Below, in pieces: positions 1-18,466 of a stretch of 64,000 nt of DNA. The notes beneath the pieces are model-generated. The model was not told the origin of the DNA. It did not search any database and worked only from the letters and a program-made list of their open reading frames with translations. The position numbers and the translations under genes are program-made. The stretch is from Bacteroidales bacterium. GTDB taxonomy: Bacteria; Bacteroidota; Bacteroidia; Bacteroidales; Tenuifilaceae. The DNA lies in assembly GCA_013376985.1 (NCBI GenBank), contig JACABB010000002.1, positions 206,523 through 270,522 on the forward strand, read 5' to 3'. Positions within the stretch are counted from its first letter, which is position 1, and each line of letters starts with the position of its first letter.

Positions 1-36
1 CTCCTCCGAATTCGAAGGTTTTACTAGTGGTTTCAT
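1..36 (-). CDS. RiPP-type precursor peptide, copy 3 (partial, runs off left edge)
   Basis: Only the first 12 codons lie inside the window. They encode MKPLVKPSNSEE, identical to the first 12 residues of copy 2. Three of the twelve codons differ, all synonymously (TTA/CTA, CCC/CCT, GAA/GAG), which argues for selection on the peptide and not a fresh duplication. It starts 17 bases after the stop of copy 2, in the same tandem arrangement. The rest, and any further copies, are outside the window. Confidence 0.75.
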   Translation of the reverse strand, partial: MKPLVKPSNSEE

Positions 37-53
37 ACTATTATTTTTTTTGG

Positions 54-188
54 TTAAAACAGGATATCATCCTTATCATCATCGGCATAAACTTTGCCGT
101 TACATGCTTGATGGCAATTGCATTCAACTAATGCTTCGTACTTGCTATCTAACTCTTCCGAATTCGAGGGTTTTACTAATGGTTTCAT
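54..188 (-). CDS. RiPP-type precursor peptide, copy 2
   Basis: This encodes 44 residues. It begins MKPLVKPSNSEELDSKYEAL, continues with VECNCHQACNGKV and ends YADDDKDDILF. Compared with copy 1, the leader keeps MKPLxKP, the middle keeps ECNC/DECNC, QACN and three cysteines, and the last eleven residues are identical although five of those codons differ synonymously. The gene follows copy 1 by 16 bases and precedes copy 3 by 17. There is no signal peptide or membrane segment. The leader/cysteine-core layout, tandem copies and nearby YcaO enzyme and ABC exporter suggest a precursor for a modified peptide. The function is inferred; I do not recognise a named family. Confidence 0.8.
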   Translation of the reverse strand: MKPLVKPSNSEELDSKYEALVECNCHQACNGKVYADDDKDDILF

Positions 189-204
189 ATTATTATTTTT
201 TTAG

Positions 205-342
205 TTAAAATAAAATATCGTCTTTATCATCGTCGGCATAACGCTTGCTATTACATGCTTGATAGCAGTTGCATTCATCTAATGCCTTGAACTTATCATC
301 TTCATTTAAAGATGAATCTTTTGGCTTGATTAAAGGTTTCAT
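205..342 (-). CDS. RiPP-type precursor peptide, copy 1
   Basis: This encodes 45 residues and is the first copy read on the minus strand. It begins MKPLIKPKDSSLNEDDKFKA, has a middle LDECNCYQACNSKR with three cysteines, and ends YADDDKDDILF. The start is supported by AAGGAG nine bases upstream and by alignment with copies 2 and 3. A charged leader with a possible recognition helix (DDKFKAL; DSKYEAL in copy 2) is followed by the cysteine core. Both ends of the peptide are conserved, which is unusual, since RiPP cores usually vary. The conserved hydrophobic ILF C-terminus could be a recognition tag for the S41 protease encoded upstream; that is inference. Confidence 0.82.
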   Translation of the reverse strand: MKPLIKPKDSSLNEDDKFKALDECNCYQACNSKRYADDDKDDILF

Positions 343-351
343 AATTTTTAT

Positions 352-357
352 CTCCTT
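352..357 (-). promoter_or_regulatory. Ribosome binding site of precursor copy 1
   Basis: The minus strand reads AAGGAG here, nine bases before the ATG of the first precursor gene. Copies 2 and 3 lack such a site and have A-rich spacers of 16-17 bases, so they may depend on translation of copy 1. Strong Shine-Dalgarno sites are uncommon in Bacteroidota, so this one fixes the start and suggests high expression. Confidence 0.6.
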
Positions 358-437
358 TGCGTTAGTTAAAATAATTTTAAATAATTAATCTGATGCTTGC
401 AAGACTTTTAATAAAAATATTATTCAGATTACAATTA

Positions 438-471
438 CAAAGGAATATAAAAAAAAATACTATTTAGTATT
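438..471 (-). promoter_or_regulatory. Possible promoter with palindromic operator upstream of precursor array
   Basis: A perfect inverted repeat AATACTA-TT-TAGTATT lies at 456-471, about 115 bases upstream of the first precursor start. Just downstream on the minus strand, at 438-445, is TTCCTTTG, one base off the Bacteroidota -7 element TAnnTTTG. No good -33 TTTG is seen 19 bases further up. The repeat would lie in the spacer, a usual place for an operator. The AraC-type regulator at 5200-5943 is the only candidate regulator in the locus. The repeat is AT-only, so chance is possible. Confidence 0.35.
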
Positions 472-541
472 GATTTTCTTTAATCTATTACGTTTTTATG
501 CAGTAGTAGAATTTAGATATATACTCGATTATCATTGGGTT

Positions 542-1078
542 TTATAAATAATAAAACATATTAGGCAGCACATTTTCATAATAAAGTAGATTGTCAAAAT
601 CCTTTTTAATCTCTTCAAAACGATTGCTATCTGAAAAACAAATTAAATGGGTATAATCTTCAACATAATTCTGATAGCGTATAATATAAGTTTTTAAAGC
701 AGTGGTTATTGTGATTAAACACCCTAAAAAACACTATAAAGTTTATTGAATTTAATATCAAGACTGTTAATCGATAGATATAAAAACCGATTTTTAAATC
801 TCTATTTGTAAAACCCAAATAAATGGTTTCAATTCGTTGAGATACTTGATATAAAACTCTTTCGCTAATGCATTAAGATCACTACATGCATGTTTATTTA
901 GACTATCGAACAGCATACAATCGAAAACACATACAATAGCATTTTTAGATTTTTCATGCTGAAAAATTTAGTGAAAAGAATTGCACGAAATTTCACTAAA
1001 TTCATTTTCCACACATCTCACAAATAATTTATACGCATGATTTTCAAAAGCATATCAAAATTTGACTTTACTAATGAT
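542..1078 (-). pseudogene. Decayed gene of unknown family between YcaO gene and precursors
   Basis: Read on the minus strand, this stretch gives protein-like sequence of about 175 residues broken by stops and frame changes. Legible parts, in order, are YAFENHAYKLFVRCVENEFS, a stop, then NAIVCVFDCMLFDSLNKH and KEFYIKYLNELKPFIWVLQI, a shift into NRFLYLSINSLDIKFNKLYS, a stop, and another shift into ALKTYIIRYQNYVEDYTHLI and FEEIKKDFDNLLYYENVLPN, ending FYYL and a stop. GAGGAG lies just upstream of the right end (1081-1086). I do not recognise the family. Position suggests it once belonged to the peptide locus. It could instead be several tiny genes, but fragments this rich in aromatic and acidic residues in a consistent order favour one broken gene. 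Confidence 0.5.
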
Positions 1079-1149
1079 ATTCTCCTCACAAAACAAACTT
1101 ACATAGATAAATTTAGCCTTTCCTTGATCATTTGTTATAAAGTTATAAC

Positions 1150-2952
1150 TTAGTTACAATAGTCCAAAAAGGAGAAAAGAGTGCTTTGATCTGACTTATC
1201 ATTTTCGATAGTTTGCAGTATTTTATTTGTTATTTCTTCCCACTTGGGAAAATTACAATAATTGATCAGTGGACAACTCTTACAATCATTACAAGATATT
1301 AAACTTGTGCTTTCTAAAGTATTTTCCGCTTGAGTAACACTCAGAATAACTTCATCTATAGTACCAACATTGTATATTGGTGCAAGTTCATTCTTAATTT
1401 GATCTTGAGGGCATAACCCATCTATACTCAATTTCAAGTAAGCCAATAAGCATAAATAATAATCTTTATTTATTAAAGGGGTATTACAATTATGCGTAAA
1501 AAAGGAGTTTAGGATGTTAAAAGCATCCTTCTTTCGATTCTCCTTAATGTAAATAAATGCAAGAATAATCTTTGCAGGATAGTTGCCAAGCGGATTATTC
1601 TCATCAAGATTCAGCATCATTTTTTTAAATATCTGCGTCTGATTTATATATGAGTTTATTGGCAATCTCTCTAACTCTGAGATTAAACAAGATAGTTCAT
1701 CCGCACTACAACTATTTAAATTCAAGAACGCTTTTGCAGCTTTTGCAACAATAAAATTTCGATTAATAGAATCGAAATCTTGAATATAGATTTCTGAAAT
1801 ACCTGGAATATAAATTTTAAATGTTGGAAAATTAGCGAATGATAGATTTCGAATGAATATTTCAAAATTTTCAAATCTCAGAAGATCTAATAAGTGCTTT
1901 AGCCCTTGCTTACTGCCTGTATAGTCTATACAAAATGGTTTGTAATATAATCTCTCAACAGATTTGTTTTCAAAAAAAATTGAATTGGGAAATTGTCCAG
2001 TGCCATTTTTACAAATATTTTCAAAAGATTTCCTTTTGTCTTCAAAGGTTTTATCTTTAATATCCCACTCAATGTTTAATGCGTTATTGACTAATTCTTC
2101 TTTAGAGAACCCCTGAAACATTTCAGTTAAACATCGCTCCAATGCAATTTCAAATACAGGATCTGAACCATGTTTAAATATGTATTTATTAGAGCGAGTA
2201 TCCACCAAAAGAACTCCAACGACAGGATACCTCCCTCCCAATGTGCAATCTTTTACATATATCTTCAATCCTGAGTTTTCTAAAAATCTTATTGTTTTAT
2301 ATATATTGAAACCAACTAATTCCTCTAATGGAACTGTAGGTAAGGTTAATTCATCAAAAATGATTTTCTTTATAACATATCTTTCCAAAAGTTCGCATAT
2401 TCCATGTACCAAGGCTTCCTCGTTTGTATTCCCTGCACACATTCCATTTGTTCCAATAGAAAATCCAACCAACCGTATAGGCAACATTTCTATTTTCCTA
2501 TTATTAAAATGATAATAAGGAGCACCTATTGAGAGGCTTGTATATTCTTTAAGAATTGTTGAAAATTTATCTTTATCATAATCAATAATGAGATACTTAA
2601 GCAGTTTTTCATTTTCCACAATTTTCTCATAAGAAATAAAAGTTTCATCAGGATGATTAAACTTATCACTAATTTTTAAACCATACTTCTTTGATACTAA
2701 AACCCTGTTTTGCAAGCGTTCCATTAATTCGCCATAAGCGCTTGCCAATGCAAACAAGCGGCTTGTTCCTTTCCCATTAACACCACTCCCTGGCAACCCA
2801 TCAATTTCTATTCTAACAGAATAACAAAAGTTATTTAATTTATTCCATCTTGTTTCATGGGTTAATATGCCTAGTTCTGTTAATATGCCTCGAATTTTTT
2901 GAATTGTCCTAATAGGGCTTTCATCTTTAAATTTATTAATGCTCAATTCCAT
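1150..2952 (-). CDS. YcaO-family ATP-dependent peptide-modifying enzyme
   Basis: This is a 600-residue YcaO-domain protein. YcaO enzymes use ATP to activate backbone amides, forming azolines, thioamides or amidines in RiPP precursors. The three nucleotide/Mg-binding blocks are visible: SRLFALASAYGELMER (about 64-79), AGNTNEEALVHGICELLER (about 173-191) and HGSDPVFEIALERCLTE (about 261-277). After the catalytic domain, residues about 450-550 look helical and TPR-like, as in the long E. coli YcaO. Near the C-terminus is a four-cysteine motif, CNDCKSCPLINYC (C554, C557, C560, C566), which could bind zinc or an Fe-S cluster. The PxPxP tail of azoline-forming D proteins is absent. No E1-like or TfuA partner is present in the window; one may lie beyond the left edge. 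Start is ATG, 42 bases after the S41 gene. Confidence 0.88.
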   Translation of the reverse strand: MELSINKFKDESPIRTIQKIRGILTELGILTHETRWNKLNNFCYSVRIEIDGLPGSGVNGKGTSRLFALASAYGELMERLQNRVLVSKKYGLKISDKFNHPDETFISYEKIVENEKLLKYLIIDYDKDKFSTILKEYTSLSIGAPYYHFNNRKIEMLPIRLVGFSIGTNGMCAGNTNEEALVHGICELLERYVIKKIIFDELTLPTVPLEELVGFNIYKTIRFLENSGLKIYVKDCTLGGRYPVVGVLLVDTRSNKYIFKHGSDPVFEIALERCLTEMFQGFSKEELVNNALNIEWDIKDKTFEDKRKSFENICKNGTGQFPNSIFFENKSVERLYYKPFCIDYTGSKQGLKHLLDLLRFENFEIFIRNLSFANFPTFKIYIPGISEIYIQDFDSINRNFIVAKAAKAFLNLNSCSADELSCLISELERLPINSYINQTQIFKKMMLNLDENNPLGNYPAKIILAFIYIKENRKKDAFNILNSFFTHNCNTPLINKDYYLCLLAYLKLSIDGLCPQDQIKNELAPIYNVGTIDEVILSVTQAENTLESTSLISCNDCKSCPLINYCNFPKWEEITNKILQTIENDKSDQSTLFSFLDYCN

Positions 2953-2994: not shown

Positions 2995-5103
2995 TTAATA
3001 GTTCTTCAAGTATTTAATGGCAAGCTGCAATAGTTTGTCATTATAAGGAGCTAAATCCAAATACGAATCAAAAAATGTTGTAATACTTGGTTTAACGCCT
3101 TTATTACTTTCAATGCTTTCTCCGCTGGCATCATATGTTCTTAAATAGCTGTATCTGACTCCTCCTGAGAAAGAATTACAACTTGGAAGAAAAGTTAATT
3201 TTCCAACCCTGGCTGCCGCCGCTGTATTGGAAATGCCTAATACCACTACATCTTTTCTGATTTTTTTTAAAGCATTTATTAAATACTCAGAAGCACATGT
3301 AGTACGCGAGTCCACAATTACTGCAATGGGTTTATCATAATAAAAAAACTTTGACGGTTTTATTACCCAAGTCTCATAACCACTAGACATACTATAAATA
3401 TCATCAATATTTGCAATTGGAAATTCTACAATTGGATTGGCATGATTAGTAAAAAACGAAAAAACAGTAGCAAACGAAACGTCCCCTTCAGAGTTATTTC
3501 TCAAATCTAGAATTAAACCCGATGAATTTTTTAAACTATCAATATATGTGTACATGAATGGTATTATAAATTGTTCATAAAACTCACCTATTCTCAAATA
3601 AGCAAATTCATTTATTTTTTTGTATACTAGCCCGTTAATTGCTCTGAAATTTTTAGGATATACTAAATTTTTGTTTTTATATATTTTTGAACTATCAAGA
3701 TTTACAGAATAGCTATAGGTTCCATTTCTTAAAAATTTTAACTGTAAACCAGAATGAAATTTTTCATAGGATAAACTCAATAGTTTTTGAATAACCTTTC
3801 TTTCATTTGACTCTAAGGTATTTGCTATTACCTTATTTTCGAGTTCTTTCAATAAAGGTTCAATTAGTATACCATTAATCATAACCAACCTATCACCGAG
3901 AAGTATCTTTTTATTTAAAGTTGTATCCATAATCGCAACTGCCTGAATATTATTATTTATTCTATAAAAATGAATCGGTTGTTTGACTTCCGATTTTGTT
4001 CGTTTTAAATTAATGAGCTTATTATGTATATCATCTAATTTTGTCAAAAAACTCTCCGTTAATTCATAATATTCATCTAACGATTTTGATTTTTTAACTA
4101 TTTCTAAATATTCCGACATAAAAGCATGCTTATCAATTCCCTTTTCTTCAAAATATGGGTACTTTTTTAATATCTCTGCAATATAAGTAGAAACGTATTT
4201 TATCTTTTCAGTTTGAGAAAGGCTATCGGATGGGTATACTAATTCAAGATATGGTGTGTCACCATATCTTTCAAAAAGATTTGGAATTTCCAAAAAAACG
4301 CCAGCATTATCTTTAATTTTTTGAATATCATTAGACCAATTCAATTTATTGAATGAACAACCTAATGTGTTAAAAAAATATTTTGTCTCTCTAAAACGAT
4401 CATATATATTCGCCTCACCTAATATTAATGTACAATCCTGATTCTTTTGCTTTTTTGAACCAATTACCCTAATCTCTGATATACTAAATGAATCAACATT
4501 ATCAAAATATTTTTTATTCACTAATCGTTTTAAAATAGTTGAATCCAGTTCAATACTTTCTTCTTCCTGGAAAGTCAATTTAGGGTTCATGGAAATTTTA
4601 TAAATATTAACCCATATATTCATTGGCTTTAAATTTATTGAAATGTAAAGCGTGTCAATATTATGCGAATAAAAATTTAGTTTTAAAATAGGTGTACCCT
4701 TTGTCAAACTAAATATAGATTTATTAACAACGTTATAACCCAAAACAGTATTCGGAATTTTGTATTGAATTATATTTTCGATTTTATTCAAGTCACTTTC
4801 AGCCCTAATTACTCTTTCTTTTAAAGGCATCCAACTTTTGTACGAAGGGAATAAAAAACTTACAACTTTTCCTTTTACTATGTTATCAACACCCAACTGA
4901 AGTAATAAAGAGTCTCTATCAATTGTTGTTTTAAACTTTAACCTATTTAGGCAAGAATCCTTAATGCTCGTTACACAATCTACCTTACACAAAGGGTTTT
5001 CAATACCCAGTGGGTTTATAACGGGATAATTTATTGAGTCTTTTGCTTTTAAAAAATCAATCGCAAATATTACAATGCTAATTACTAAAATAATTTTCTT
5101 CAT
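2995..5103 (-). CDS. Exported S41-family (C-terminal processing) protease
   Basis: This encodes 702 residues beginning with a Sec signal (MKKIILVISIVIFAIDFLKA), so it acts in the periplasm or at the cell surface. The C-terminal half is an S41 tail-specific protease: LILDLRNNSEGD, then IAVIVDSRTTCASEYLINAL with the likely catalytic Ser near residue 605, and GKLTF with the likely catalytic Lys near 635. A PDZ-like stretch (GDRLVMINGILIEPLL) precedes it. Residues 25-340 are not recognisable. S41 enzymes often bind hydrophobic C-termini, and the neighbouring precursor peptides end in an invariant ILF, so a maturation role is possible but inferred. It lies upstream of the YcaO gene on the same strand. 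Confidence is high for the family, low for the substrate. Confidence 0.85.
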   Translation of the reverse strand: MKKIILVISIVIFAIDFLKAKDSINYPVINPLGIENPLCKVDCVTSIKDSCLNRLKFKTTIDRDSLLLQLGVDNIVKGKVVSFLFPSYKSWMPLKERVIRAESDLNKIENIIQYKIPNTVLGYNVVNKSIFSLTKGTPILKLNFYSHNIDTLYISINLKPMNIWVNIYKISMNPKLTFQEEESIELDSTILKRLVNKKYFDNVDSFSISEIRVIGSKKQKNQDCTLILGEANIYDRFRETKYFFNTLGCSFNKLNWSNDIQKIKDNAGVFLEIPNLFERYGDTPYLELVYPSDSLSQTEKIKYVSTYIAEILKKYPYFEEKGIDKHAFMSEYLEIVKKSKSLDEYYELTESFLTKLDDIHNKLINLKRTKSEVKQPIHFYRINNNIQAVAIMDTTLNKKILLGDRLVMINGILIEPLLKELENKVIANTLESNERKVIQKLLSLSYEKFHSGLQLKFLRNGTYSYSVNLDSSKIYKNKNLVYPKNFRAINGLVYKKINEFAYLRIGEFYEQFIIPFMYTYIDSLKNSSGLILDLRNNSEGDVSFATVFSFFTNHANPIVEFPIANIDDIYSMSSGYETWVIKPSKFFYYDKPIAVIVDSRTTCASEYLINALKKIRKDVVVLGISNTAAAARVGKLTFLPSCNSFSGGVRYSYLRTYDASGESIESNKGVKPSITTFFDSYLDLAPYNDKLLQLAIKYLKNY

Positions 5104-5199: not shown

Positions 5200-5943
5200 T
5201 CATTCCTTTAGTATGGATTGTTTTTTTCTAAACTCATTAGGTGTAGTTTCAAGGGTTCTTCCAAAGCACTCGATATACCTCTGTTCATTCGTAAATCCTG
5301 ACAAATCAGCAATCTCTTTTATTTTCAAATTCGTGTTTTTTAGAAGTTCAACCGAATGCATAACCTTAAAATACATAAGTAATCGTTTGGGTGAACAGAT
5401 TTTGTTTTTTTGAAATTCTCGTGAAATTGTACTTTCGTTTACGCCTATGTAATCCGCAATATCAGTCATAGTAAAAATATTGAGATAGTTTTGCTCTATA
5501 AAAAAGAGAATCTTTTGCACATTTAACGGGTAATTTTCAATAAAAATAGAAAATTTAGCCAGTGTTATCTTTGTGTTGTGAATGTTTGAGAGTTTGATAC
5601 CAAGTTTATTCAGCTCCGAATATGTAAGCACCTCTTTTACACCACAAGTTCCAAGAAAATGAGAAATTCTACAAATAGGTTCTTTTAATATGGCTATGCT
5701 ATAAATATTTGGAAAACTAATTGCAATATAGTTTAAGAGCATATGCTCTTCTGGGGTTTGTTCAAAATTTATATATAACAATAGGATATCAAAATGATGT
5801 TTTGTAAGTTTATAACGTATTTTTGATAACGAGTCTACGAAATGACATTCATATTGCAATAAATATGGCTTAAAAATATACTCATCTTTACGATTGCAAA
5901 TTATTAAAAAAATATTTTCCCCCATTCTATCAATATTATCCAT
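5200..5943 (-). CDS. AraC-type regulator with receiver-like N-terminal half
   Basis: This encodes 247 residues. The last ~100 residues are an AraC-type double helix-turn-helix: MTDIADYIGVNESTISREFQ, KIKEIADLSGFTNEQRYIEC and TPNEFRKKQ. The first ~130 residues have the strand/helix rhythm of a response-regulator receiver (HFDILLLYINF, ISFPNIYSIAILKEP, LGTCGVKEVL), but the position where the phosphorylated Asp would sit is Tyr57. If the fold is right, it is a pseudo-receiver that senses something other than phosphorylation. It lies between the S41 gene (96 bases) and the glycosyltransferase gene (188 bases), and is the best candidate to control the locus, possibly through the palindrome at 456-471. 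Confidence 0.82.
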   Translation of the reverse strand: MDNIDRMGENIFLIICNRKDEYIFKPYLLQYECHFVDSLSKIRYKLTKHHFDILLLYINFEQTPEEHMLLNYIAISFPNIYSIAILKEPICRISHFLGTCGVKEVLTYSELNKLGIKLSNIHNTKITLAKFSIFIENYPLNVQKILFFIEQNYLNIFTMTDIADYIGVNESTISREFQKNKICSPKRLLMYFKVMHSVELLKNTNLKIKEIADLSGFTNEQRYIECFGRTLETTPNEFRKKQSILKE

Positions 5944-6131
5944 TGCTGATAAGGTATAGGTTTTGGTAATTAATAATTATTAAATGCATCAGATATTTAA
6001 ATAGATATTTACACCTGATTTTTATTTACATGCTAAATTTGTTTTTGTTTCTTAAATTATAATTAAAAACAATTCAATATTTTTTATTTGTATTAATAAG
6101 TTCATCTTAATTCGAAATATAAAAAAGCACA

Positions 6132-7676
6132 CTATGCCGTTTCATTTATTAGAGTCTTGTTAATTTCCATGTCTTCAAAAAGACTAAAATAATCTTGAAT
6201 ATTCTTATCCCATGAAAAATCTTGCTTCATTGCATTTATTTGTATTTGTTCCCAGATATCAGGGTGATTCTTATAAATTTCGATTACTTTTTTAGTAGTA
6301 TCATAAAGGCATTCTCTGCTGTTAGATTTTATATAAAACCCTGTTGGTTCAACATTGGTCTCAAAAAAACATCTAACAGTATCTTTTAAGCCCCCAACAG
6401 GCCTGACAACAGGGACTGCACCAAAAGCCATTGAATATAACTGAACTAATCCACAGGGTTCAAATAACGATGGCAACAATACAATATCCGCCGAAGCTAG
6501 ATAGTTATGTGCATCTTTTTCATTATAATTAGGATCATAATAGAATGATCCATTAAATTTTTGGCTAATTAATGTTAACGCTTCATGAATTTTACCATTT
6601 AATCCGCCTGCTGGAGCACCGTACATTACGAACGTGAACCCTAAGTCAAGATATTTTTTAAAAAAAGCGATAGAAGTCTCTTGATTTTTATCATATGCGT
6701 CATAAAACAAATTAATGCCCTTTTGTTCAGAGAGTCTACACATATATAATATCAAAGGAGTATCCTTAATCTTTTTATATTTAAATCCACAATTTTTAAA
6801 AACTTCTTTTTTGAATTTTATTTTTTCACCCTTAGAGTTGATGTTGAAATTATCCTTTAAATAAGGGCTATTTGATGGATGCCATATTTTGTAATCTACT
6901 CCGTTCAATAATCCCACAATCTTTTTTTTACTTTGAGACACAAATTTTAAGTTTTCATGCGGCAAACTGCCCTCTTTCAATTCCTTCGCATAATTTTGAC
7001 TTACAGTCAATATCGAATCTGATTGATCAATACCCAACCCAAGCATTGTGGCAAATCCGTATCTATTATACAAATCCTTAATAAGCATAAGAGTTTCTTC
7101 TTCCAAAAAGGGCAGAATATCTTCAAAAATGCATCCCTGATAACCATAATTGTGAATAAGGGTAAAACTTAAAATGTTGTTATTATAATTAGCTTTAATA
7201 GTTTTTAAAATTGAAGGAAATGCAAAAATACCTGCTGCATGCCAATCGTGGCAAATTATATGAGTTACATTTGGAATTCGTAATTGAATCAACATTAATG
7301 CGGCCTTTCCAAAGTACAAGAAAATAATAACGGAAGATAGATTCTTATATGGGTTATTTCCATTTAATGAACTAAAACCAAAATTGCAAAACACGTATTC
7401 ATCTTCCATATTAAGAAAGTAGTATTCTACTTCATTCTTTCGAAAATAATAATACTTAAATTTATACTCTACGCCCCGAATTTCAACAAAGAAATCATTT
7501 GAGATATAATTATTAAAATGATTCATCATCCCTTTATAGTAAAAAGAGATAACTACATTATTATATTCCTTTGATAAAAATTGAGGTAGTGCAGAAACAA
7601 CGTCTCCCAAGCCTCCGTTTTTATAGAAAGGAGCAACCTCATAAGCTATATGAACAATCTGTTTTTCTTTTTTCAT
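6132..7676 (-). CDS. Glycogen/starch synthase-type glycosyltransferase (GT5)
   Basis: This encodes 514 residues and resembles GlgA, which builds alpha-1,4-glucan from ADP-glucose (or UDP-glucose) in the cytoplasm. The nucleotide-sugar loop KNGGLGD is at residues 19-25, and the C-terminal donor-site signature FEPCGLVQLYSMAFGAVPVV begins at residue 405, followed by GGLKDTV. Length suits bacterial GlgA (about 480-530). It is followed on the same strand by the AraC gene and preceded by a GH13 gene 160 bases away. No glgB, glgC or glgP is nearby, so this is not a classical glycogen operon. It may be a second glucan pair, or may modify the locus product; the sequence does not decide. Confidence 0.88.
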   Translation of the reverse strand: MKKEKQIVHIAYEVAPFYKNGGLGDVVSALPQFLSKEYNNVVISFYYKGMMNHFNNYISNDFFVEIRGVEYKFKYYYFRKNEVEYYFLNMEDEYVFCNFGFSSLNGNNPYKNLSSVIIFLYFGKAALMLIQLRIPNVTHIICHDWHAAGIFAFPSILKTIKANYNNNILSFTLIHNYGYQGCIFEDILPFLEEETLMLIKDLYNRYGFATMLGLGIDQSDSILTVSQNYAKELKEGSLPHENLKFVSQSKKKIVGLLNGVDYKIWHPSNSPYLKDNFNINSKGEKIKFKKEVFKNCGFKYKKIKDTPLILYMCRLSEQKGINLFYDAYDKNQETSIAFFKKYLDLGFTFVMYGAPAGGLNGKIHEALTLISQKFNGSFYYDPNYNEKDAHNYLASADIVLLPSLFEPCGLVQLYSMAFGAVPVVRPVGGLKDTVRCFFETNVEPTGFYIKSNSRECLYDTTKKVIEIYKNHPDIWEQIQINAMKQDFSWDKNIQDYFSLFEDMEINKTLINETA

Positions 7677-7836
7677 TTTTTAACAATGGCAAAAATTCAT
7701 ATAGATTATTTTTTATTATCTAATTTTCGGGTTCCTAAATTTTTAAATAAACACGCACTATTTTTCATCATAAATAATCTACATTTAATCATTTGTTTGA
7801 AATATTAGTATAAAGAACATTTCGTTATTATTGATT

Positions 7837-9840
7837 TCAAATTACTGATTGTATTTGTTTTGTTGCCGTCTGATTGTTATATGTTTCAAAAATATCGAAT
7901 TGTATAATGGTTGTACTTTTTTCAAGTACTTCAATGTTTTGTGCATTAACTCTCGCCCCCATCAACATTTCAGATTTTCCATATGAGCTAATGAAAACAT
8001 CGGTGTTTATTACTACCTCTTTTTCAGAAGAATTTATCACAAAACAAATAATACTCATCTTGAATTTTCTAGCAATAATGAGTATTCCCTTATTGCTATC
8101 AACATATGGAATCTCAATATTACCATAATCAAAAACCTCTTTAAATTGACTTCGAATCCCAATTAATTTTTGAAAGAATTTAATGAATTTTGAATCTAAA
8201 TTATAGCCATTCCAGTTCATTGAGCATCTATTGTCCTCTATTTCTCCAGACAACAAATGCTCTTCCCCATAGTATAAAATAGGTGTTCCGGGTATGGCTA
8301 GGAGTAAACAAAAAGCCAACAAATAGTCTTTTTTATTTTCCAATTCATAATAAAATCTCGGTAAATCGTGATTACTTAAAAAATTCCATGAATGTTGAAC
8401 AGTCCAAAATGAATGTGAATAATTATATTCCATTAGTTTGGTAGCCAATTCTACTAGTGTTATTCTTTTGTCAAGAAAAAAAGACTTAAAGACATCTATA
8501 TATAAACCATAAGCAGTTATTCCATCACCACCCGCTTTATCCACAAAATTTTCAGGATTATCATGAAGATTTTCTCCAATCAGGAGAATTTCTTTTTTTG
8601 TATCTTTAACTGCTTTTATAAATTTATATACAAAAGAATCGGGCATTTCACTGCTTACATCAATACGCCAGCCATCAATATCATGTTTGGTTATCCAGAA
8701 TATTGCAGATTCAATTAAATAACTTTGAACTTCAGTATTGTTAATATTAAATTGTGGTAATTCTTTGTATCCATGCCAACAACTATAGTTAATTTCATCT
8801 ATTGAAACAGGAAATGTTTCAATTATAAACCAATCCCGATATTTTGATTTTTCTTGAAACCTCAATATATCTTTAAACGCAAAAAAGTCTACACTACAAT
8901 GATTAATTGAAATGTCCAAAATTACCTTCAACCCTTCTGAATGTATTTTTTCGACTAATTTTTTAAAATCAGCCTGCGAACCTAATACCGGATCTACTAC
9001 TCTGTAATCAATAGTATCATATCTATGAGCACTTTTGGCATGAAATATAGGGTTTAAGTAAATAAATTTGACTCCCAATTTTATAATTAAGGGAATCTTT
9101 TCAATTATCCCGTTAATGTCCCCCCCGTACCATGTGTAAGTATGGTGCAAACTTCCCCACTCCTGAAAATTAGAATCATTGATCTGGTTTTCTGATTTCC
9201 AAAAAGTGTCGGGAAATATTTGATATCCAACACCAGAAAATGGGACTTTACTATTATTTTTTGGAAAATTAAAGAATACATCTTCGTTATAATCTTTCGA
9301 GGCTCTATTTTTATCTAAAAGCCAATATTCTCTTTCTCCCGCACCAAATTTGATAGCAAATTTTTTTTGCTCACGTTTTTTATATCTAAGATTCCAGAAT
9401 TTAATATTTCTGTACTCAAAGCATATATCAAATTCAATCTCCTCTAATCCCTCATTTACCAGTTTCACTTCATTTATCCAAGAATAATAGCTAATGGCTT
9501 TGAATTCTACCAAATCATCCTTAATGTAGGAAATAAACCGCGGATCATTGTTAAAATACAAATGGGTAAATATTTCTGATTTTATTATTATAGGAACTCT
9601 AGATTTTAAATCCTGACCCATTAAAGGCGAACTAATGTCAACATACTCGGTTGTAAAATCATCATTTAAATACAAATGATAATAAGAAATACCTAAAGGC
9701 AAATCTAATTCTACGATGAAAAAATCATCTTTTTTCAACATTTTTTTACGATAATACCTTCCCTTTGCCGGAAATACACCTATTGAGATTTTCTGAATAT
9801 CACCCCTACCTTCACCATGTATAATTATCTCTTTAATCAT
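7837..9840 (-). CDS. GH13 alpha-amylase family protein (neopullulanase/cyclomaltodextrinase-like)
   Basis: This encodes 667 residues without a signal peptide, so it is probably cytoplasmic. All four GH13 signatures are present: DISINH (309-314), GWRIDV with nucleophile Asp394, GEN with acid/base Glu423, and NHD with Asp492. The ~200 residues before the barrel (starting near FSGVGYQIFPDTFWK) look like the N-terminal beta domains of cyclomaltodextrinase/neopullulanase enzymes, and a C-terminal beta domain follows. It should hydrolyse or transfer alpha-1,4-glucosidic bonds in maltodextrins. Its ATG overlaps the stop of the condensation gene by four bases (ATGA), so the two are translationally coupled, an odd pairing of glucan and peptide-type enzymes. 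Confidence 0.9.
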   Translation of the reverse strand: MIKEIIIHGEGRGDIQKISIGVFPAKGRYYRKKMLKKDDFFIVELDLPLGISYYHLYLNDDFTTEYVDISSPLMGQDLKSRVPIIIKSEIFTHLYFNNDPRFISYIKDDLVEFKAISYYSWINEVKLVNEGLEEIEFDICFEYRNIKFWNLRYKKREQKKFAIKFGAGEREYWLLDKNRASKDYNEDVFFNFPKNNSKVPFSGVGYQIFPDTFWKSENQINDSNFQEWGSLHHTYTWYGGDINGIIEKIPLIIKLGVKFIYLNPIFHAKSAHRYDTIDYRVVDPVLGSQADFKKLVEKIHSEGLKVILDISINHCSVDFFAFKDILRFQEKSKYRDWFIIETFPVSIDEINYSCWHGYKELPQFNINNTEVQSYLIESAIFWITKHDIDGWRIDVSSEMPDSFVYKFIKAVKDTKKEILLIGENLHDNPENFVDKAGGDGITAYGLYIDVFKSFFLDKRITLVELATKLMEYNYSHSFWTVQHSWNFLSNHDLPRFYYELENKKDYLLAFCLLLAIPGTPILYYGEEHLLSGEIEDNRCSMNWNGYNLDSKFIKFFQKLIGIRSQFKEVFDYGNIEIPYVDSNKGILIIARKFKMSIICFVINSSEKEVVINTDVFISSYGKSEMLMGARVNAQNIEVLEKSTTIIQFDIFETYNNQTATKQIQSVI

Positions 9841-11291
9841 ATATTAGGTTTATTGCTTAGATCTAATCTAATATCTTTAATTTTTTTATCTGAGTTTACT
9901 TTAAAACCATCGATTAATTCAAGATATTTAGAAAATATGAAGTCAATTGTATCTTTTGTAAATAAACTTGTTTTATAGCCACAACTCACTTCAATAATAT
10001 TATCGAAAATTGAAATCCCGCAATTAATATCAAAATAAGGATTTCCAATATTATCCGTATGTATAGGATGCTGGTTATCATTATTGCTTATTACGTTCTC
10101 AGAACTTGTAATATTTAAAAATAAATTACTAATGCGATGAAGAGGGACATCAGAATCATATAATGCTTTTTCAAATGGATATATTTGATGTCTTAATGTT
10201 TTAATAAAGCTCACATAAACAGTTTTAATAAAATCTATTAAATCAACAGATTCTTCTATTTTGTGACGGAATAAAACCGTATTTGTTAGACAACCTATTA
10301 AATTATCTAACTCTTTTCGATCCCTCATGTTTGAACATATTCCAATAATATTATCTCTTTCACCTGTCAATTTGTAAAGTAACAAGTGAAAGGTTGCAAT
10401 AATTATGTGGGACATATTGGCGTTTGATTCGTGAACCAGTCTTTTTAAAATTGCTAATCGTTGTGAATCAATAATAAAGGAATATCCAGCACCTTGTTCA
10501 AATTTTAAAAAAGAAACGGTTCCAAAAAAATCATACTCCATTTTTGTGGATACTTTTCTACAACACTCATTCATTTCTATTCGAAGAGTCTCTTTATAGG
10601 ATTTATTTTTGTTAAAATTATTATTTGAGAATAGCGTTGTTAAATTATTATTTGGTAACTCTCTTAAAATATTTAGCCAATATAATCTATGCTTTTCTCC
10701 TTTATCGCTTCTTAAAATTTCATTTATTTCTGCTATGTAATCTTTGTATTGAAGAACTTTAGAGTCATCAATACTTTCACCTTCTAATTGTGCTTTATAT
10801 ATAAAAGATAATTCTTTTTTAATGAACTGCATAGAACGAACATCGGTAATCATGTGAGGCGCAACTAGAAGTAAAATGCTTATATTTTCATTCAACTGTA
10901 TAATTTTTATACGTAACCATGGGCGCTGATCGCATTTAAAAAGCACTTGATTAAAATCACATTTTAATTTATTCAGTTTTCCTTCTTTATCTTTAGATTT
11001 TTTAAGATTAACAATGCTAACATCAAAGAGAGAAGAATCATGATCCCATACTTTTTGCTTTACCTCACCATCTACCATTAAAAGAGTAGTTCTAAAAATT
11101 TCATGCCGTTGAATTAAAATATCAAAAGCCTTCTTGATTGCCTCTAAATTCAAGTTCCTTATTTTAATTGAGTCAGGAACATTGAAAGGAATAATTTGCT
11201 TTTTAGTTTTAGCGTATAAATGTCCTATGAAAGCAGCTTTCTGAGTTTGTGATGCTTCGTAGTATATCTGATTTTCATTATTCTCTTGCAT
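9837..11291 (-). CDS. Free-standing NRPS-like condensation domain protein
   Basis: This encodes 484 residues forming a single condensation (C) domain, a fold that joins acyl or aminoacyl groups to amines or alcohols. Visible are the N-terminal YEASQTQKAAF and IQRHEIFRTTL blocks, a core motif APHMITDVRS at residues 144-153, and the late blocks GERDNIIGICSNMRDRKEL, IGCLTNTVLFR and HQIYPFEKAL. In the core motif the usual HHxxxDG reads PHMITDV: the second His (146) and Asp (150) remain, while the first His and the Gly are replaced. There are no adenylation or carrier domains here or nearby, so it would act on a substrate supplied otherwise. It is coupled to the amylase gene and follows the ABC exporter by 102 bases. 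Confidence 0.85.
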   Translation of the reverse strand: MQENNENQIYYEASQTQKAAFIGHLYAKTKKQIIPFNVPDSIKIRNLNLEAIKKAFDILIQRHEIFRTTLLMVDGEVKQKVWDHDSSLFDVSIVNLKKSKDKEGKLNKLKCDFNQVLFKCDQRPWLRIKIIQLNENISILLLVAPHMITDVRSMQFIKKELSFIYKAQLEGESIDDSKVLQYKDYIAEINEILRSDKGEKHRLYWLNILRELPNNNLTTLFSNNNFNKNKSYKETLRIEMNECCRKVSTKMEYDFFGTVSFLKFEQGAGYSFIIDSQRLAILKRLVHESNANMSHIIIATFHLLLYKLTGERDNIIGICSNMRDRKELDNLIGCLTNTVLFRHKIEESVDLIDFIKTVYVSFIKTLRHQIYPFEKALYDSDVPLHRISNLFLNITSSENVISNNDNQHPIHTDNIGNPYFDINCGISIFDNIIEVSCGYKTSLFTKDTIDFIFSKYLELIDGFKVNSDKKIKDIRLDLSNKPNI

Positions 11292-11393
11292 ATCATCGTT
11301 TGATTAGTACCTTCTTTTAAGCCCCTATGAAACAATCAAATAAATTATTTTTCTTTTTCATCTCTGTAGTAATTAATGATTATATTCATAACA

Positions 11394-13112
11394 TTACTCT
11401 ATCTGCTGTTTAAATAATTCCCAATAAAACCCTTTCTTTTGAACTAAATAATTATGCTCTCCCTTTTCAACAACTCGACCCTTATCCAAACAGATAATTT
11501 CATCAACATTTTTTATTGCACTTAGCCTATGGCTAATCAGTATTATTATTTTGCCTTTATAATGGTTTGATATGTTATTAAAAATGTTATTTTCGCTTTC
11601 AGAGTCTAATGCAGAAGTTGCTTCATCCAATACTATCAAATCAGCATCTTTTAAAAATGCCCTTGCTATTGCGATACGTTGTTTTTGTCCACCTGAAATT
11701 TTTGTACCTTCATTACCAATTATTGAATCAAATCCTTCATTTAAAATATTTATAAAATCATCTAAACCAACCTGATGAGAAACATGTATAATATCTTCGG
11801 GTGTACAATCGAGGTTTCCATATTTAATGTTTTCTGATATTGAGTCGTGGAAAAGATGATTATCTTGCGTTATTAATGCAATCCTTCTTCTTACCTCATG
11901 AACGTTTAAATCTTCAATTTTTTTATCGCCTATGATTATAGTTCCTTTTTGATGCTCATAGAACTTACATAATAAATTAATAATTGTACTCTTCCCACAA
12001 CCGCTTGAACCCACAAAAGCATATTTTTTACCAGGGATCAACTCCAAATTGAAATCCCTAAGTACAATTTCCCCATCATATTTAAATTCCACTTCTTCAA
12101 AACATATTTTCTTGTTTAAGTCTATATTCTCTATGTCGCCACTCATTTGTTCAATGGGTAAATCCATATATTCAAATATTCTTCTCATTGAGACCGAGGT
12201 TCGTACCATATCCCAATATAAATACATGAAATCGTTAACCGGGTTGAAAATTCTATTTAAATATTGTATAAAGGCGATTAATGAACCCATCGTCATTGCA
12301 CCTATTATTACATTTTGCCCACCCCAAGCAAAAATGATTAAAGGAGATAAAGAGATCAAAAAAGTAGTAATACTTTGAGTTCCTGATGACAGTATTGCAG
12401 TCTTTAAATTTAAATCTATTAACTCATTTCCTTTTGAATTTAACCTTTCTCGTTCATAATGATAGCGATTGTAACTTTTTATAAGCTTTATATTATTAAA
12501 CCTTTCCACAAAAAATCCCAAAATATCGGAATCTTTTTCTCGTGACTTTTTTATCAAATTATGGATTCTTGGTTGAAAATATCTTGCATTAAATAATGCA
12601 AAGGGGACAACCACCATTGAAATGATAAATAGTTTATAGTTTAATAAGCAAAGCGCAATTGTTAATCCAATAAGAGTTAAAATATTTCTAATAAAACGAA
12701 CCAATGATCCTGTGAGCATTCCCTGAACTGCATTTACCTCTTCATTTATTCTATGGGTAACATCTCCTGTTTTATTTTTATCAAAAAATGAGATGGGAAA
12801 ATGTAGTATTCGTTTGAATAACTCCATGCGTATATCCAACATTATATGATTACTCACCAACGCGTATAAATAGCTAGAATAGAAATCTAGCAGTATTCTA
12901 ACGATATTAATCCCCACTAAAAGAAATAATATGTGTATCAAAAAGGTAAAATCCTTAGTTGGAATAATTTCATCAATAATAACTTTTAAAATATAAGGAG
13001 AAACTAGGGTTCCAGCACTTGCAATAACCATTAGAATAAATAGAATAGTCTCTTTAACCCAGTAAGGTTTTATAAATCTTAGAAACTTAAAAAACAACTT
13101 GTGAGATTTCAT
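11394..13112 (-). CDS. ABC exporter, fused membrane and ATPase domains
   Basis: This 572-residue half-transporter exports a substrate as a dimer. Residues 1-310 carry about six membrane helices, and 340-572 are the ATPase: Walker A GSSGCGKST (from 368), signature ISGGQKQR (from 472), Walker B LIVLDEAT and the switch His in ISHRLS. There is no N-terminal C39 peptidase, so it would not cut a leader itself; leader removal would fall to another protease such as the S41 enzyme downstream. It heads the minus-strand gene series that ends with the precursor peptides. It could also be a lipid or drug exporter of the MsbA type; context favours peptide or product export. Confidence 0.88.
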   Translation of the reverse strand: MKSHKLFFKFLRFIKPYWVKETILFILMVIASAGTLVSPYILKVIIDEIIPTKDFTFLIHILFLLVGINIVRILLDFYSSYLYALVSNHIMLDIRMELFKRILHFPISFFDKNKTGDVTHRINEEVNAVQGMLTGSLVRFIRNILTLIGLTIALCLLNYKLFIISMVVVPFALFNARYFQPRIHNLIKKSREKDSDILGFFVERFNNIKLIKSYNRYHYERERLNSKGNELIDLNLKTAILSSGTQSITTFLISLSPLIIFAWGGQNVIIGAMTMGSLIAFIQYLNRIFNPVNDFMYLYWDMVRTSVSMRRIFEYMDLPIEQMSGDIENIDLNKKICFEEVEFKYDGEIVLRDFNLELIPGKKYAFVGSSGCGKSTIINLLCKFYEHQKGTIIIGDKKIEDLNVHEVRRRIALITQDNHLFHDSISENIKYGNLDCTPEDIIHVSHQVGLDDFINILNEGFDSIIGNEGTKISGGQKQRIAIARAFLKDADLIVLDEATSALDSESENNIFNNISNHYKGKIIILISHRLSAIKNVDEIICLDKGRVVEKGEHNYLVQKKGFYWELFKQQIE

Positions 13113-13793
13113 CTTTTACGATACTAACAGATTAATCAATTTCATGTAAAAAACGTTTAATTTTATTGCAGCTTCTAGATTTTTGTCTCTCATCCATTTG
13201 CCCTTCATATTTATAATTTCCCAAATCTCCTTTTATCATTTCTCTTTCATTTGATATTAAATTACCTCCTAGAAACTAACTTAAAATGTTTTTTTTAAAC
13301 ATGGCAAGATCCTTTTGTAATCCTGAAGAATCAAAAATTCCCAGTCGCAGTCTTTTAAATCTTTATTTTTCAAACAGAACTAAACCATACTGCTTACAAT
13401 GTGAACACATTTTTTAATATGCATTTAGATATACATTATTAAATTAACAGAAATTTATATTAAAAATACATATTTATACTAAAATTAACAATAGAAAATG
13501 ATTATTTAATATAAAATATTTATTTTAAAAAATAATATTTATAGAACACATCTTTAATATTTATAATTATTTTTAATTTAATCATTATTATGCCATAAAA
13601 AGTGAAAATAATTATGATAAAATATTTGCAAAAATGTTTAATTTTCGTTTATTCATTATCCTGATTGGAAATATATTCTTTATTAACAGCACTGTTGAAT
13701 AGGAGAATATGAACGTTTCTAATTGATCGTTTCAGTTTAAGAATACCGATAAATATCATTTGTTACAAATAATTCTAAAAAATCTCATTATTT
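13113..13793. other. AT-rich gap with possible small-peptide remnant
   Basis: This 0.7 kb separates two divergent gene groups. On the minus strand, 13132-13239 is a 35-codon frame beginning MIKGDLGNYKYEGQMDERQK and ending 19 bases before the exporter start. The same frame runs on upstream past one TAG, reading SGLQKDLAMFKKNILS, stop, FLGGNLISNERE, which faintly resembles a Bacteroidota bacteriocin leader. A GGAGG lies at about 13264-13270 on the minus strand. This may be a broken small peptide gene or chance. The rest (about 13420-13790) is very AT-rich and shows no gene. Confidence 0.25.
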
Positions 13794-13824
13794 TTTGTTT
13801 ATATTATAAACTACTTTATATTTG
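13794..13824 (+). promoter_or_regulatory. Bacteroidota-type promoter with operator in the spacer
   Basis: TTTG at 13794-13797, a spacer of exactly 19 bases, then TATATTTG at 13817-13824 match the primary sigma consensus TTTG-N19-TAnnTTTG. The ATG at 13844 follows by 19 bases. The palindrome at 13797-13811 lies between the two elements, so a bound protein would block RNA polymerase. This promoter also shows that an ATG at 13760 cannot be the start. Confidence 0.8.
13797..13811. repeat. Palindromic operator candidate GTTTATATTATAAAC
   Basis: This is a 15-base perfect palindrome with 7-base arms around one central base. It sits between the -33 and -7 elements of the promoter of the operon that encodes a winged-helix regulator as its second gene. 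A near copy (one arm mismatch) lies at 14716-14730. Two copies upstream of genes of the same operon suggest autoregulation by the protein at 14415-14699; that is inference. Confidence 0.6.
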
Positions 13825-13843
13825 CAGAACAAATTTTACTCTT

Positions 13844-14422
13844 ATGGATGATCAAATTAAAAATGCCGAAGAAAGTTTTCAGATTATCAAGGATATGATT
13901 GAAAACGAAAAAGCTCGCTTTAATGAAAACGGGTTTGTTTATCTATTCTGGGGTTGGCTTGCAATATTTTGCGCTACCCTTGAGTATGTGCTAATATTTT
14001 CAGAAGTTCATCAGCACTACTACGCTTGGTTTACAATGCTTTTGGGGGGATTGTTTATGGGATTCTATTTTCGCAATAAAAAAGGACGTTCTTCAATGCC
14101 TTTAACAGGAAAGGTTATATCCTGTTTGTGGATTTCAATTGGAGTAAACATCTTTATATCTGCTTTTCTAATCCCCGTAACTTTTGGGCATTTACTACTA
14201 TTCTTTATACTAGCAATGATTGGTGTTGGCACTACAATTTCTGGCGCATTAATAAGGTTCTCTTGGCTAACAATTGGTGGCATTATCTGTAATATCCTTG
14301 CTTTTGTTACTATTTTCGTACCGTCAATTTACTGGGGAGTAATTTCAATTGCAGCAATTATATTTGCAGATATTATCCCCGGTTATATGTTAAGAGCTAA
14401 ATATCGTAATCGTCATGTATAA
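13844..14422 (+). CDS. Membrane protein of unknown function, first gene of regulator operon
   Basis: This encodes 192 residues starting MDDQIKNAEESFQIIKDMIE. An ATG 84 bases upstream is open but lies ahead of the promoter, so this start is preferred. A charged N-terminal helix of about 35 residues is followed by roughly five to six membrane helices (LFWGWLAIFCATLEYVLIF; WFTMLLGGLFMGFYF; LWISIGVNIFISAFLI; LLLFFILAMIGVG; two more near the end). No catalytic motif is seen. Its stop overlaps the start of the winged-helix regulator by eight bases. The pair resembles small membrane-protein/regulator pairs common in Bacteroidota; the role could be sensing or stress control. Confidence 0.75.
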   Translation: MDDQIKNAEESFQIIKDMIENEKARFNENGFVYLFWGWLAIFCATLEYVLIFSEVHQHYYAWFTMLLGGLFMGFYFRNKKGRSSMPLTGKVISCLWISIGVNIFISAFLIPVTFGHLLLFFILAMIGVGTTISGALIRFSWLTIGGIICNILAFVTIFVPSIYWGVISIAAIIFADIIPGYMLRAKYRNRHV

Positions 14423-14699
14423 AGAGTTGGACCCCATACTGCATTCGCCTCTTCGCTTAGCTATTATTTCTCTTTTAGTAAAGGGAGGTGAGTTTGATTT
14501 CAATACCTTAAAGGAGAAGACAGGGGCAACATCTGGCAATATTAGCGTGCAGCTCAAGAAACTTGAAGAGGCTGGTTATATAACCATTGAGAAGTCTTTT
14601 AAAAAAAACTACCCCCACACTGATGTTTCAATATCTAAAAAGGGTCTTACTGCTTTTGAAGAGTATGTAAATTCTTTAAAAGATTATCTGGGAGTTTAA
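14415..14699 (+). CDS. Winged-helix transcriptional regulator
   Basis: This 94-residue protein is nearly all one winged helix-turn-helix domain: HSPLRLAIISLLVKGG, FNTLKEKTGATSGNISVQLK as the recognition helix, KLEEAGYITIEKSF and the wing, then HTDVSISKKGLTAFEEYV. It resembles the short MarR/ArsR-like regulators of Bacteroidota. It overlaps the upstream membrane-protein gene by eight bases. The likely targets are the palindromes at 13797-13811 and 14716-14730, which would make it an autoregulator of this operon. There is no obvious metal-binding cysteine cluster, so the signal is unknown, perhaps the overlapping membrane protein. Confidence 0.85.
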   Translation: MYKELDPILHSPLRLAIISLLVKGGEFDFNTLKEKTGATSGNISVQLKKLEEAGYITIEKSFKKNYPHTDVSISKKGLTAFEEYVNSLKDYLGV

Positions 14700-14715
14700 T
14701 TTTTTTATTATTTTA

Positions 14716-14730
14716 GTTTACATTATAAAC
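14716..14730. repeat. Second operator candidate GTTTACATTATAAAC
   Basis: This 15-base sequence differs from the perfect palindrome at 13797-13811 by one base. It lies in the 45-base gap between the regulator stop and the lipoprotein start at 14745. A weak -7-like TTATTTAC follows at 14731-14738, only six bases from the ATG, so an internal promoter giving an almost leaderless transcript is possible. Its likely role is local control of the lipoprotein and TonB receptor genes. Confidence 0.5.
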
Positions 14731-14744
14731 TTATTTACAAAAAC

Positions 14745-15569
14745 ATGAAAACAAAAATTATTTACCTAGCTTTTGCAATCCTAATTGTAAATTCGTGCAA
14801 AGGCAACATAAAATACTCCAAAAAAGAACATTTAACAGTACAGCAAACGCAGAAATTTTCTTTGAAAAGCGTTCAGCAAAGCGATACGTTATTAAACAAC
14901 ATAGAGCAAAAGATCAACCAAGCTTTTGCCAAAGGTACAATAAATCAAACAGATAGCGATCTAGCATCTTTAGAGGAAGAACTATTATCAGTAAATAGTA
15001 AGAAGAAGAATACTATTATAACATACTGGTATTCATATTCAATCTATTACCATTCAATACTCCTAATGATTCACAAAGATTTGAAAAAATCGGAAAAGGT
15101 ACTTGATGATGGTATTGAAAAACTCGAAGGGATTGACCAAAAAAATTCGGAGCATTTTGCTTTACTAGCACTAATGGAGAGTTTTTCCATTCAATTTTCA
15201 TCGGGGATAAAAATTCCTTTTATATCCGCCAATGTGAAGAAAAATGCCGAGAAAGCAATTGAACTAGATTCTCTAAACCTAAGAGCGTACTATGTATTAG
15301 GATCAAATGATTTTTACACACCAGCACAGTACGGTGGTGGTAAAAAAGCAGAAAACTATTTCAAAAAGGCAATACAATTAAATAGTCAGTCGGTAAAAAA
15401 TCCATACCTGCCAAGTTGGGGTAAAAACTCAGCCTATGAACTCCTTATAAGATCTTATATTAACAAAGGACAGTTTAGTGAAGCAAAAAAATACTTTCAA
15501 GAAGCAATTGCTTTATTCCCAAATGACTATATGATAAATCAACTTGCAAGTAAACTTATCAATCATTAA
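14745..15569 (+). CDS. TPR-containing lipoprotein
   Basis: This encodes 274 residues with a lipoprotein signal (MKTKIIYLAFAILIVNSCKG, lipidated Cys18). The C-terminal half has tetratricopeptide-like helices: NAEKAIELDSLNLRAYYVLG, GGKKAENYFKKAIQLNSQSV and GQFSEAKKYFQEAIALFPND. TPR arrays bind proteins, so it may sit in the periplasmic face of the outer or inner membrane as a partner of the TonB receptor encoded two bases downstream. No enzyme motif is seen. It is controlled with, or separately from, the upstream regulator through the operator at 14716. Confidence 0.78.
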   Translation: MKTKIIYLAFAILIVNSCKGNIKYSKKEHLTVQQTQKFSLKSVQQSDTLLNNIEQKINQAFAKGTINQTDSDLASLEEELLSVNSKKKNTIITYWYSYSIYYHSILLMIHKDLKKSEKVLDDGIEKLEGIDQKNSEHFALLALMESFSIQFSSGIKIPFISANVKKNAEKAIELDSLNLRAYYVLGSNDFYTPAQYGGGKKAENYFKKAIQLNSQSVKNPYLPSWGKNSAYELLIRSYINKGQFSEAKKYFQEAIALFPNDYMINQLASKLINH

Positions 15570-15571
15570 AA

Positions 15572-17725: not shown

Positions 17726-17733
17726 GTAAAATT

Positions 17734-17767
17734 GAAGGGACTACAAAAAACCGTCCCTTCTTCTTTT
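17734..17767 (+). terminator. Rho-independent terminator after TonB receptor gene
   Basis: Arms GAAGGGAC (17734-17741) and GTCCCTTC (17753-17760) pair perfectly around an 11-base loop and are followed by TTCTTTT. It lies nine bases after the receptor stop codon. Confidence 0.7.
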
Positions 17768-17814
17768 ATCGATTTATAAAAACTCATATCTTGTGCATTT
17801 ATGCTTTACTATAA

Positions 17815-18225: not shown

Positions 18226-18271
18226 AAATTCATTTGACAAACATAAGTTTAGAAGGGAGGATAAAATATAG

Positions 18272-18421: not shown

Positions 18422-18466
18422 CAATAACACGCTCAATAATTTACAAACTTTTTTAAGGGTAAATAT

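Follow-up and report, generated by a model that had tools for sequence, protein, structure and literature searches.

A tandem array of probable RiPP precursors related to the DD(I/V)LF type in a Bacteroidales genome

At the left edge of a 64,000-nucleotide stretch of Bacteroidales DNA (the window) lies a tandem array of small genes that very probably encode real, selected peptides, RiPP precursors of a type that is known and chemically unsolved. Their C-terminal tail carries the DD(I/V)LF motif of the FlmA/OhkA precursors, which were described in 2025 together with the peptide arginases FlmR and OhkR and whose final products are, in the available part of that report, given by its authors as not yet known (PMC12703449); the earlier note, which recognised no family, was wrong on this point. 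The anatomy of the array, the pattern of selection, the gene content and the presence of a different cassette at the same site of a second genome (G706, same genus) are read from the sequence itself. The cluster is a FlmA/OhkA-like relative with tailoring enzymes unlike those of the published examples. It is unusual in having a YcaO and B12-type radical SAM proteins in the arginase's stead, in that G706 carries another cassette where this one lies, and in the joint occurrence of the tail and an S41 peptidase.

The array and the selection acting on its copies

The source assembly comprises 5.26 Mb in 85 contigs, and the window corresponds to C12:206523-270522; the DNA to its left is covered by segment L004 (C12:188523-208522), from whose coordinates window positions follow by subtracting 18000. 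All copies are on the minus strand. Copy 1, the first transcribed, occupies window 205..342 and encodes 45 aa, copy 2 occupies window 54..188 and encodes 44 aa, and the first 12 codons of copy 3 occupy window 1..36, where the window edge and a 100-N scaffold gap follow. Tandem small precursor genes at this edge had been proposed before, and their reality, strand and coordinates are confirmed. The suggested search for copies farther left returned, on the same contig, a 3' fragment of 99 nt beyond the gap (L004 17802-17900) and three further intact copies (L004 17650-17784, 17498-17632 and 17347-17481), so that the array holds five intact copies and one interrupted by the gap. Together, its parts of 36 nt and 99 nt have the length of exactly one 135-nt copy, which gives at least six copies, a lower bound since the size of the assembly gap is uncertain and more copies may lie inside it. 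L004 contains five matches to a DNA pattern joining leader and tail, whereas 200 shuffled versions gave 0.00 on average, and the array is for this reason not a product of chance.

The start MKPL[IV]KP is present in all six readable copy starts and the tail YADDDKDDILF is identical in all six readable ends, as the earlier note had described for fewer copies; its CNCxQACN motif did not extend beyond copies 1 and 2, and over the readable copies becomes C[NG]C[YH]QAC[NK]. Five tail Asp and three Cys are invariant in every readable copy. The synonymous differences counted previously were exact, amounting to five of the last eleven sense codons between copies 1 and 2 and three of the first twelve between copies 2 and 3. 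Pairwise pN/pS was 0.28 for residues 1-20 (leader), 0.42 for residues 21-33 (middle) and 0.00 for the tail, where one of 55 counted changes is non-synonymous solely through a path-count intermediate and no residue differs. With 8 of the 11 tail codon columns varying synonymously, the proposal of purifying selection on the peptides, C-terminus included, stands. When five single-base changes were placed at random in a crude simulation, every one was synonymous at a frequency of 5e-05; since array copies have a common history and sequence may pass between them, this value and the pN/pS ratios describe a pattern and are not independent tests. Directly before YADDD, residue 33 is R, V, F, F, T and Y (five residues in six copies). 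Copy 1 is the only one with an Arg, the residue on which an Arg-to-ornithine change as in the FlmA/OhkA type would act.

Could the peptides instead be small metal or redox carriers, or the remains of a decaying array? They are Cys-rich, acidic and nearly identical from copy to copy. This reading is nonetheless hardly credible, given that no stop codon or frame change occurs in any readable copy, that the peptides are under purifying selection, that their genes are placed with maturases and a transporter, and that 25 of 27 genomes of the family have no match.

Gene content and relationship to known systems

The array looks like a set of RiPP precursors, as had been proposed, with a YcaO nearby and a radical SAM maturase outside the window. 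A hairpin of 13 pairs on the minus strand (z -5.47 against 200 shuffles) lies between array and maturase and is terminator-like, a consensus scan having found three such sites against a shuffle mean of 1.1. The minus strand then carries the radical SAM/SPASM maturase (L004 15885-17276), an S8 subtilase-DUF1611 fusion (L004 13897-15810), an ACP-like protein whose gene overlaps that of the fusion by four bases (L004 13652-13900) and two B12-binding radical SAM proteins, the first with CVGNCLNC (L004 11039-13474; B12 domain 31.6 bits, just under the Pfam cut-off of 32.1) and the second with CPFHCSFC (L004 9383-10993). An ABC ATPase and two ABC-2 permeases follow on the plus strand (L004 5716-9009). 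Just outside this ACP-bearing cassette there is a holo-ACP synthase-like gene (PF01648; L004 5285-5707), which is found in G706 too (71% identical).

To the right of the array, on the minus strand, are a YcaO of 600 aa (window 1150..2952; PF02624 143.8 bits, cut-off 25.7), an S41 peptidase of the C-terminal-processing type with 702 aa (window 2995..5103; PF03572 50.4 bits, cut-off 24) and an AraC-type regulator (window 5200..5943) in the flank, 82% identical to its G706 counterpart, where the two genomes become similar again. The roughly 800 bp between array and YcaO (window 343-1149) hold no convincing gene, and this gap counts against assuming co-transcription. At the same site in G706 (cluster C16) the S41 gene ends only about 25 bp before the array. 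Farther right, a stand-alone NRPS condensation-domain protein and an ABC exporter (window 9837-11291 and 11394-13112) are kept in G706 (74% and 94%) outside the differing region and are therefore probably not part of the cassette.

The maturase is similar to FlmE/OhkG over its full length, scoring 235.8 bits with NF052473, under the cut-off of 500; the G706 maturases score 494.2 (C16) and 256.7 (C19, a second cluster elsewhere in that genome). It carries CNCRCEYC at position 101 and SPASM cysteines C365, C409, C412, C418, C422 and C437, and exceeds the cut-off of the SPASM model TIGR04085 (53.5 against 27 bits). The precursor model NF052472 was the sole NCBIfam model matched by the two copies scanned, below its cut-off of 30 bits (13.6 for copy 1, 19.7 for copy 2; best score in the genome search 18.4). 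Half of the control genomes (7 of 14) likewise have sub-cut-off matches to it at E up to 1, and for this reason the family link is drawn from the motif, the maturase and the comparison with G706. The peptide arginase model PF12640 had no match in the genome under study and none in the 14 control genomes, and detects the G706 arginase at 68.5 bits (hmmscan). Like FlmA/OhkA (NCBIfam NF052472-NF052474), then, the cluster has short multi-copy precursors ending in DDILF and a FlmE/OhkG-like maturase; unlike them, it has a YcaO and two B12-type radical SAM proteins and no arginase was found. Two missed score cut-offs and the arginase result lead us to call the array a divergent variant of the FlmA/OhkA type, whose closer members sit at the same chromosomal site in G706, where the arginase and two precursors out of five exceed their cut-offs.

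A likeness to Clo7bot clusters is also apparent in the tandem Cys-rich arrays, in the leader (MKFIKKP, for example; KP is at residues 6-7 in seven of nine peptides of a Paraclostridium plasmid) and in a maturase 28% identical, which scores 198.1 bits with the Clo7bot model TIGR04334, under its cut-off of 600. The Paraclostridium cluster differs in having no DDxxF tail and no S41 peptidase annotated within 15 kb, in a gene table that is incomplete. Other matches below cut-off were QhpE (96.5 of 165 bits), TIGR04066 (57.6 of 200) and TIGR04069 (17.8 of 70). CcpM/SacP23 clusters likewise combine a radical SAM protein, a subtilase, a TIGR04066 protein, ACP-related proteins and an ABC transporter, with a different precursor and with subtilase and TIGR04066 protein as separate genes in contrast to the fusion here; the SacP23-type Paenibacillus cluster, with its separate genes, was antibacterial when expressed whole in B. 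subtilis (available part of PMC10731318).

The nearest match of the YcaO is the E. coli protein, which it resembles across most of its length (PDB 4q84, E 2.5e-31, residues 15-441) and keeps the ATP-binding motifs when aligned with that protein and two other YcaO proteins. It differs in its RiPP-like setting, in a C-terminal CxxCxxC...C cluster and in scoring 217.9 bits with NF040716 against a cut-off of 700. Such a YcaO is rare: at E 1e-40, two genomes out of 295 in the order have one, counting the genome under study. No E1-like/ThiF or TfuA partner was found among the cluster proteins scanned. Nor is YcaO the defining partner of the peptides, as the two related G706 clusters have peptide arginases and no YcaO was seen there, none being present among the listed reading frames of the C16 cassette. 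Two other RiPP-like loci with a YcaO were noticed. One, on another contig of the same genome (C42, segment L005), holds an E. coli-type YcaO 35% identical to the first (6099-7949), a radical SAM/SPASM protein nearest PapB (10490-11806; 195 bits, cut-off 340) and a 55-aa Cys peptide with KKVKGG and CGTC motifs and no NCBIfam match (12015-12182); the other, in genome G229 (L044 4231-10474), has a YcaO with 33% identity in the neighbourhood of an ABC exporter that carries a C39 peptidase.

The S8-DUF1611 fusion is present in the cluster under study, in both G706 clusters and in genomes G262 and G368, the latter two found by searching with the fusion. All five aligned proteins retain the catalytic Asp, His and Ser of S8 as well as the P-loop GK, and each of the five fusion genes is adjoined by an ACP-like one whose Ser, judged by eye, is where it should be. 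A DUF1611 protein reportedly N-acetylates D-glutamate. It is this activity, with the adjacent ACP-like gene, that raises the idea of acyl transfer by the S8-DUF1611/ACP pair, which is speculation; a literature search yielded no paper in its support.

Different cassettes at one chromosomal site

Among 27 genomes of the GTDB family, the precursor profile detected the array's own copies and one weak match in G706 (E 0.059). Matches to the precursor (E 0.1), the AraC regulator (1e-30), S8-DUF1611 (1e-10) and the ABC ATPase (1e-70) were each confined to G000 and G706 (2 of 27). The G706 flanks are 84-92% identical in DNA on both sides of the cassette site; between them, blastn at the threshold used found no DNA similarity between positions 6396-23262 of the joined stretch under study and 8954-20167 of G706. 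The proteins encoded at the shared site are distant, with identities of 26% for the radical SAM maturase, 27% for S41, 32% for S8-DUF1611, 35% for ACP and 23-28% for the permeases. Cluster C16 encodes an arginase of the FlmR/OhkR type (391.8 bits, cut-off 350) and five precursors beginning MKELVK[PS], with highly variable Cys-rich middles; two exceed the FlmA cut-off (36.7 and 32.1 bits). Their tails are DDILF (two), DDIIF, GDIIF and DELLF, of which GDIIF and DELLF deviate. A simple swap of arginase for YcaO in an otherwise orthologous cluster was considered and dropped, as the whole cassette differs.

Cluster C19 comprises an S41 peptidase, a maturase, S8-DUF1611, ACP, permeases, two arginase-type proteins (395.9 and 270.2 bits, cut-off 350) and two precursors with the tails YADEE[IV]DDITF, which share the pattern YADxxxDDIxF with the array studied here. 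It is closer to our cluster than C16 is, at 40 versus 33-34% identity for S8-DUF1611, 36 versus 29% for S41 and 34 versus 27% for the maturase in separate comparisons. A ten-row tree also groups the two maturases (94/93, not starred), in a topology with five of seven inner branches open and long branches flagged. Because the cluster is nearer to C19 than to C16 at its own site, whole-cassette exchange is favored over divergence in place. That two genomes of one genus have different cassettes at the same position suggests a peptide locus that is polymorphic and possibly antagonistic.

In order and phylum samples that did not include G706, NF052473 was matched in 1 of 295 genomes of the order (1e-60) and 3 of 395 of the phylum (1e-50), and S8-DUF1611 in 2 of 393 and 3 of 395, respectively (both at 1e-40), own included throughout. 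The other two phylum genomes with NF052473 matches (G463 and G519) yielded no precursor-like ORF by the leader/tail rule, and G675, from the S8-DUF1611 search, matches the S8 part only. A DNA pattern scan of a collection of genome contigs, for peptides of about 40-50 aa with a MKxxxKP start and a DD[IV]LF end, returned two hits. That in L025 is taken as a chance match, since the only frame with this end has 26 aa and is antisense to an 813-aa reading frame, and that in L026, with no listed ORF bearing such a tail, was taken as one. The pattern is narrow and would fail even on the G706 precursors, which have at least 53 aa or else end in DDITF, so that absence of such precursors elsewhere does not follow. 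Viral contigs gave no precursor match and four weak radical SAM relatives. On plasmids, S8-DUF1611 had no match at 1e-20 and the arginase none at 1e-30; our radical SAM query (1e-30) matched five records, from Paraclostridium (three, Clo7bot where so annotated), Sarcina (one) and Methylomagnum (one), and the G706 query two from Paraclostridium.

Leader, core and tail, and a proposed order of events

One question is whether the DD(I/V)LF end belongs to the core or is a follower, which the available part of the FlmA/OhkA report leaves undecided (PMC12703449). The comparison of five clusters bears on this question. MKxLxKP-like starts occur in all five, namely the one described here, both in G706, that of G368 and the Clo7bot array of the Paraclostridium plasmid; deviations are one C19 precursor starting MVKNLVNA, one C16 precursor starting MKELVKS and two of the nine Paraclostridium peptides without KP. 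G368, from another order of the same phylum, has S8-DUF1611, ACP, a maturase and a 127-aa precursor starting MKPLKKP. A DDxxF-like tail is absent from G368 and from the Clo7bot set. An S41 peptidase is found in all three tail-bearing clusters; none was seen in the two tailless ones, within a Pfam scan of five neighbourhood proteins (one without a match) and ORF lists for G368 and the annotated 15 kb of the Paraclostridium plasmid. The S8-DUF1611 locus of G262 (ABC ATPase, permeases, ACP) was left unscored, as an insertion-sequence-like pair and a contig end cut the cluster; that gene pair, recognised by eye, adjoins the locus at L037 15148-17444. As the comparison covers five clusters, and two genomes of one genus supply three of these, the link between tail and S41 is weak, and their co-occurrence is suggestive only.

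One hypothesis is that the tail belongs to the core and that DDILF is kept in the product; its invariant Asp residues would then be acceptors for Cys thioethers or targets of YcaO. In ranthipeptides of the QhpD/PapB type Asp accepts thioether bridges from Cys; the Asp and Cys residues here are invariant as noted above, the maturase matches PapB (118.6 bits) and a QhpD-type model (69.9) below cut-off, and the best model for the S8 domain is QhpE, also below cut-off. However, across clusters only the DDxxF-like very end is kept, the number and spacing of middle Cys change completely, and a C19 precursor with a single Cys has the near-identical tail YADEEIDDITF. We regard this reading as unlikely. 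The same comparison qualifies the view, implied in the earlier note, of the C-terminus as a core of unusual conservation: selection on it stands and the core assignment is doubtful, since clusters with unrelated middles share the DDxxF-like end, for which a recognition or follower element is the better fit.

An alternative hypothesis is that the tail serves as a docking or export signal for the maturase, the transporter or YcaO, with S41 unrelated to it. Changing the motif to alanine left FlmR activity unchanged and made conversion by OhkR less efficient (available part of PMC12703449), from which it follows that another protein probably reads the motif. Against a docking or export role, the maturase relatives in the Clo7bot and G368 clusters adjoin precursors without such a tail; we give this possibility the same low credence.

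We hypothesize that the leader serves recognition, that the variable Cys-rich middle is the core and that the tail is a follower which would be cut by S41. The S41 protein has a hydrophobic, signal-peptide-like N-terminus (by eye). At its residue 603 a Cys is invariant across three S41 proteins, whereas PDB 8vcb, which aligns weakly (E 0.0054), has at this position a Ser that we take to be the nucleophile; with Cys for Ser, the protein, whose PDB matches are weak, may not be a normal protease. A structure prediction of residues 381-702 made without an alignment had a mean pLDDT of 32.5 and was unused. A literature search for an S41 peptidase with a radical SAM protein and a precursor peptide found no paper, and in the available part of a review of RiPP leader proteases the hits for S41, among the 12 of 19 matches listed, were DOI numbers (PMC10885120).

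In the order of events that we propose, the leader (MKPLVKP..KYEAL) would dock the radical SAM/SPASM maturase, which would cross-link one or more of the three invariant middle Cys, probably as thioethers. YcaO, perhaps with the B12 radical SAM proteins, would add ATP-dependent backbone or methyl chemistry, filling the place of the arginase. The subtilase half of S8-DUF1611 would then remove the leader, the DUF1611 half and the adjacent ACP-like protein would act on the product, and the ABC-2 transporter would provide export of the product, immunity or both. An exported S41 peptidase would trim the constant ...DDILF follower, and the multiple copies would yield a few products that vary chiefly near the residue preceding YADDD. 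Each chemical step, each location in the cell and the biological role are predictions, and the role is most likely that of an antagonistic peptide. Taken as a whole, the reading of the array as belonging to a DD(I/V)LF-related RiPP cluster that works in this order is probable. A far more specific conjunction is quite unlikely to hold in full, namely a fixed genus site with exchangeable cassettes, in which array, maturases, permeases and proteases are replaced together and arginase is swapped with YcaO and B12 radical SAM proteins, a DDxxF follower for whose removal an exported S41 using Cys as nucleophile is dedicated, and an S8-DUF1611/ACP pair that takes off the leader before acylating the N-terminus so exposed.

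The authors who described the DD(I/V)LF motif could not tell, in the available part of their report, whether it is core or follower (PMC12703449), and the comparison made here offers the S41 peptidase as a concrete candidate for a protein acting on it. The cluster would thus represent a natural variant of the DD(I/V)LF type with other tailoring enzymes.
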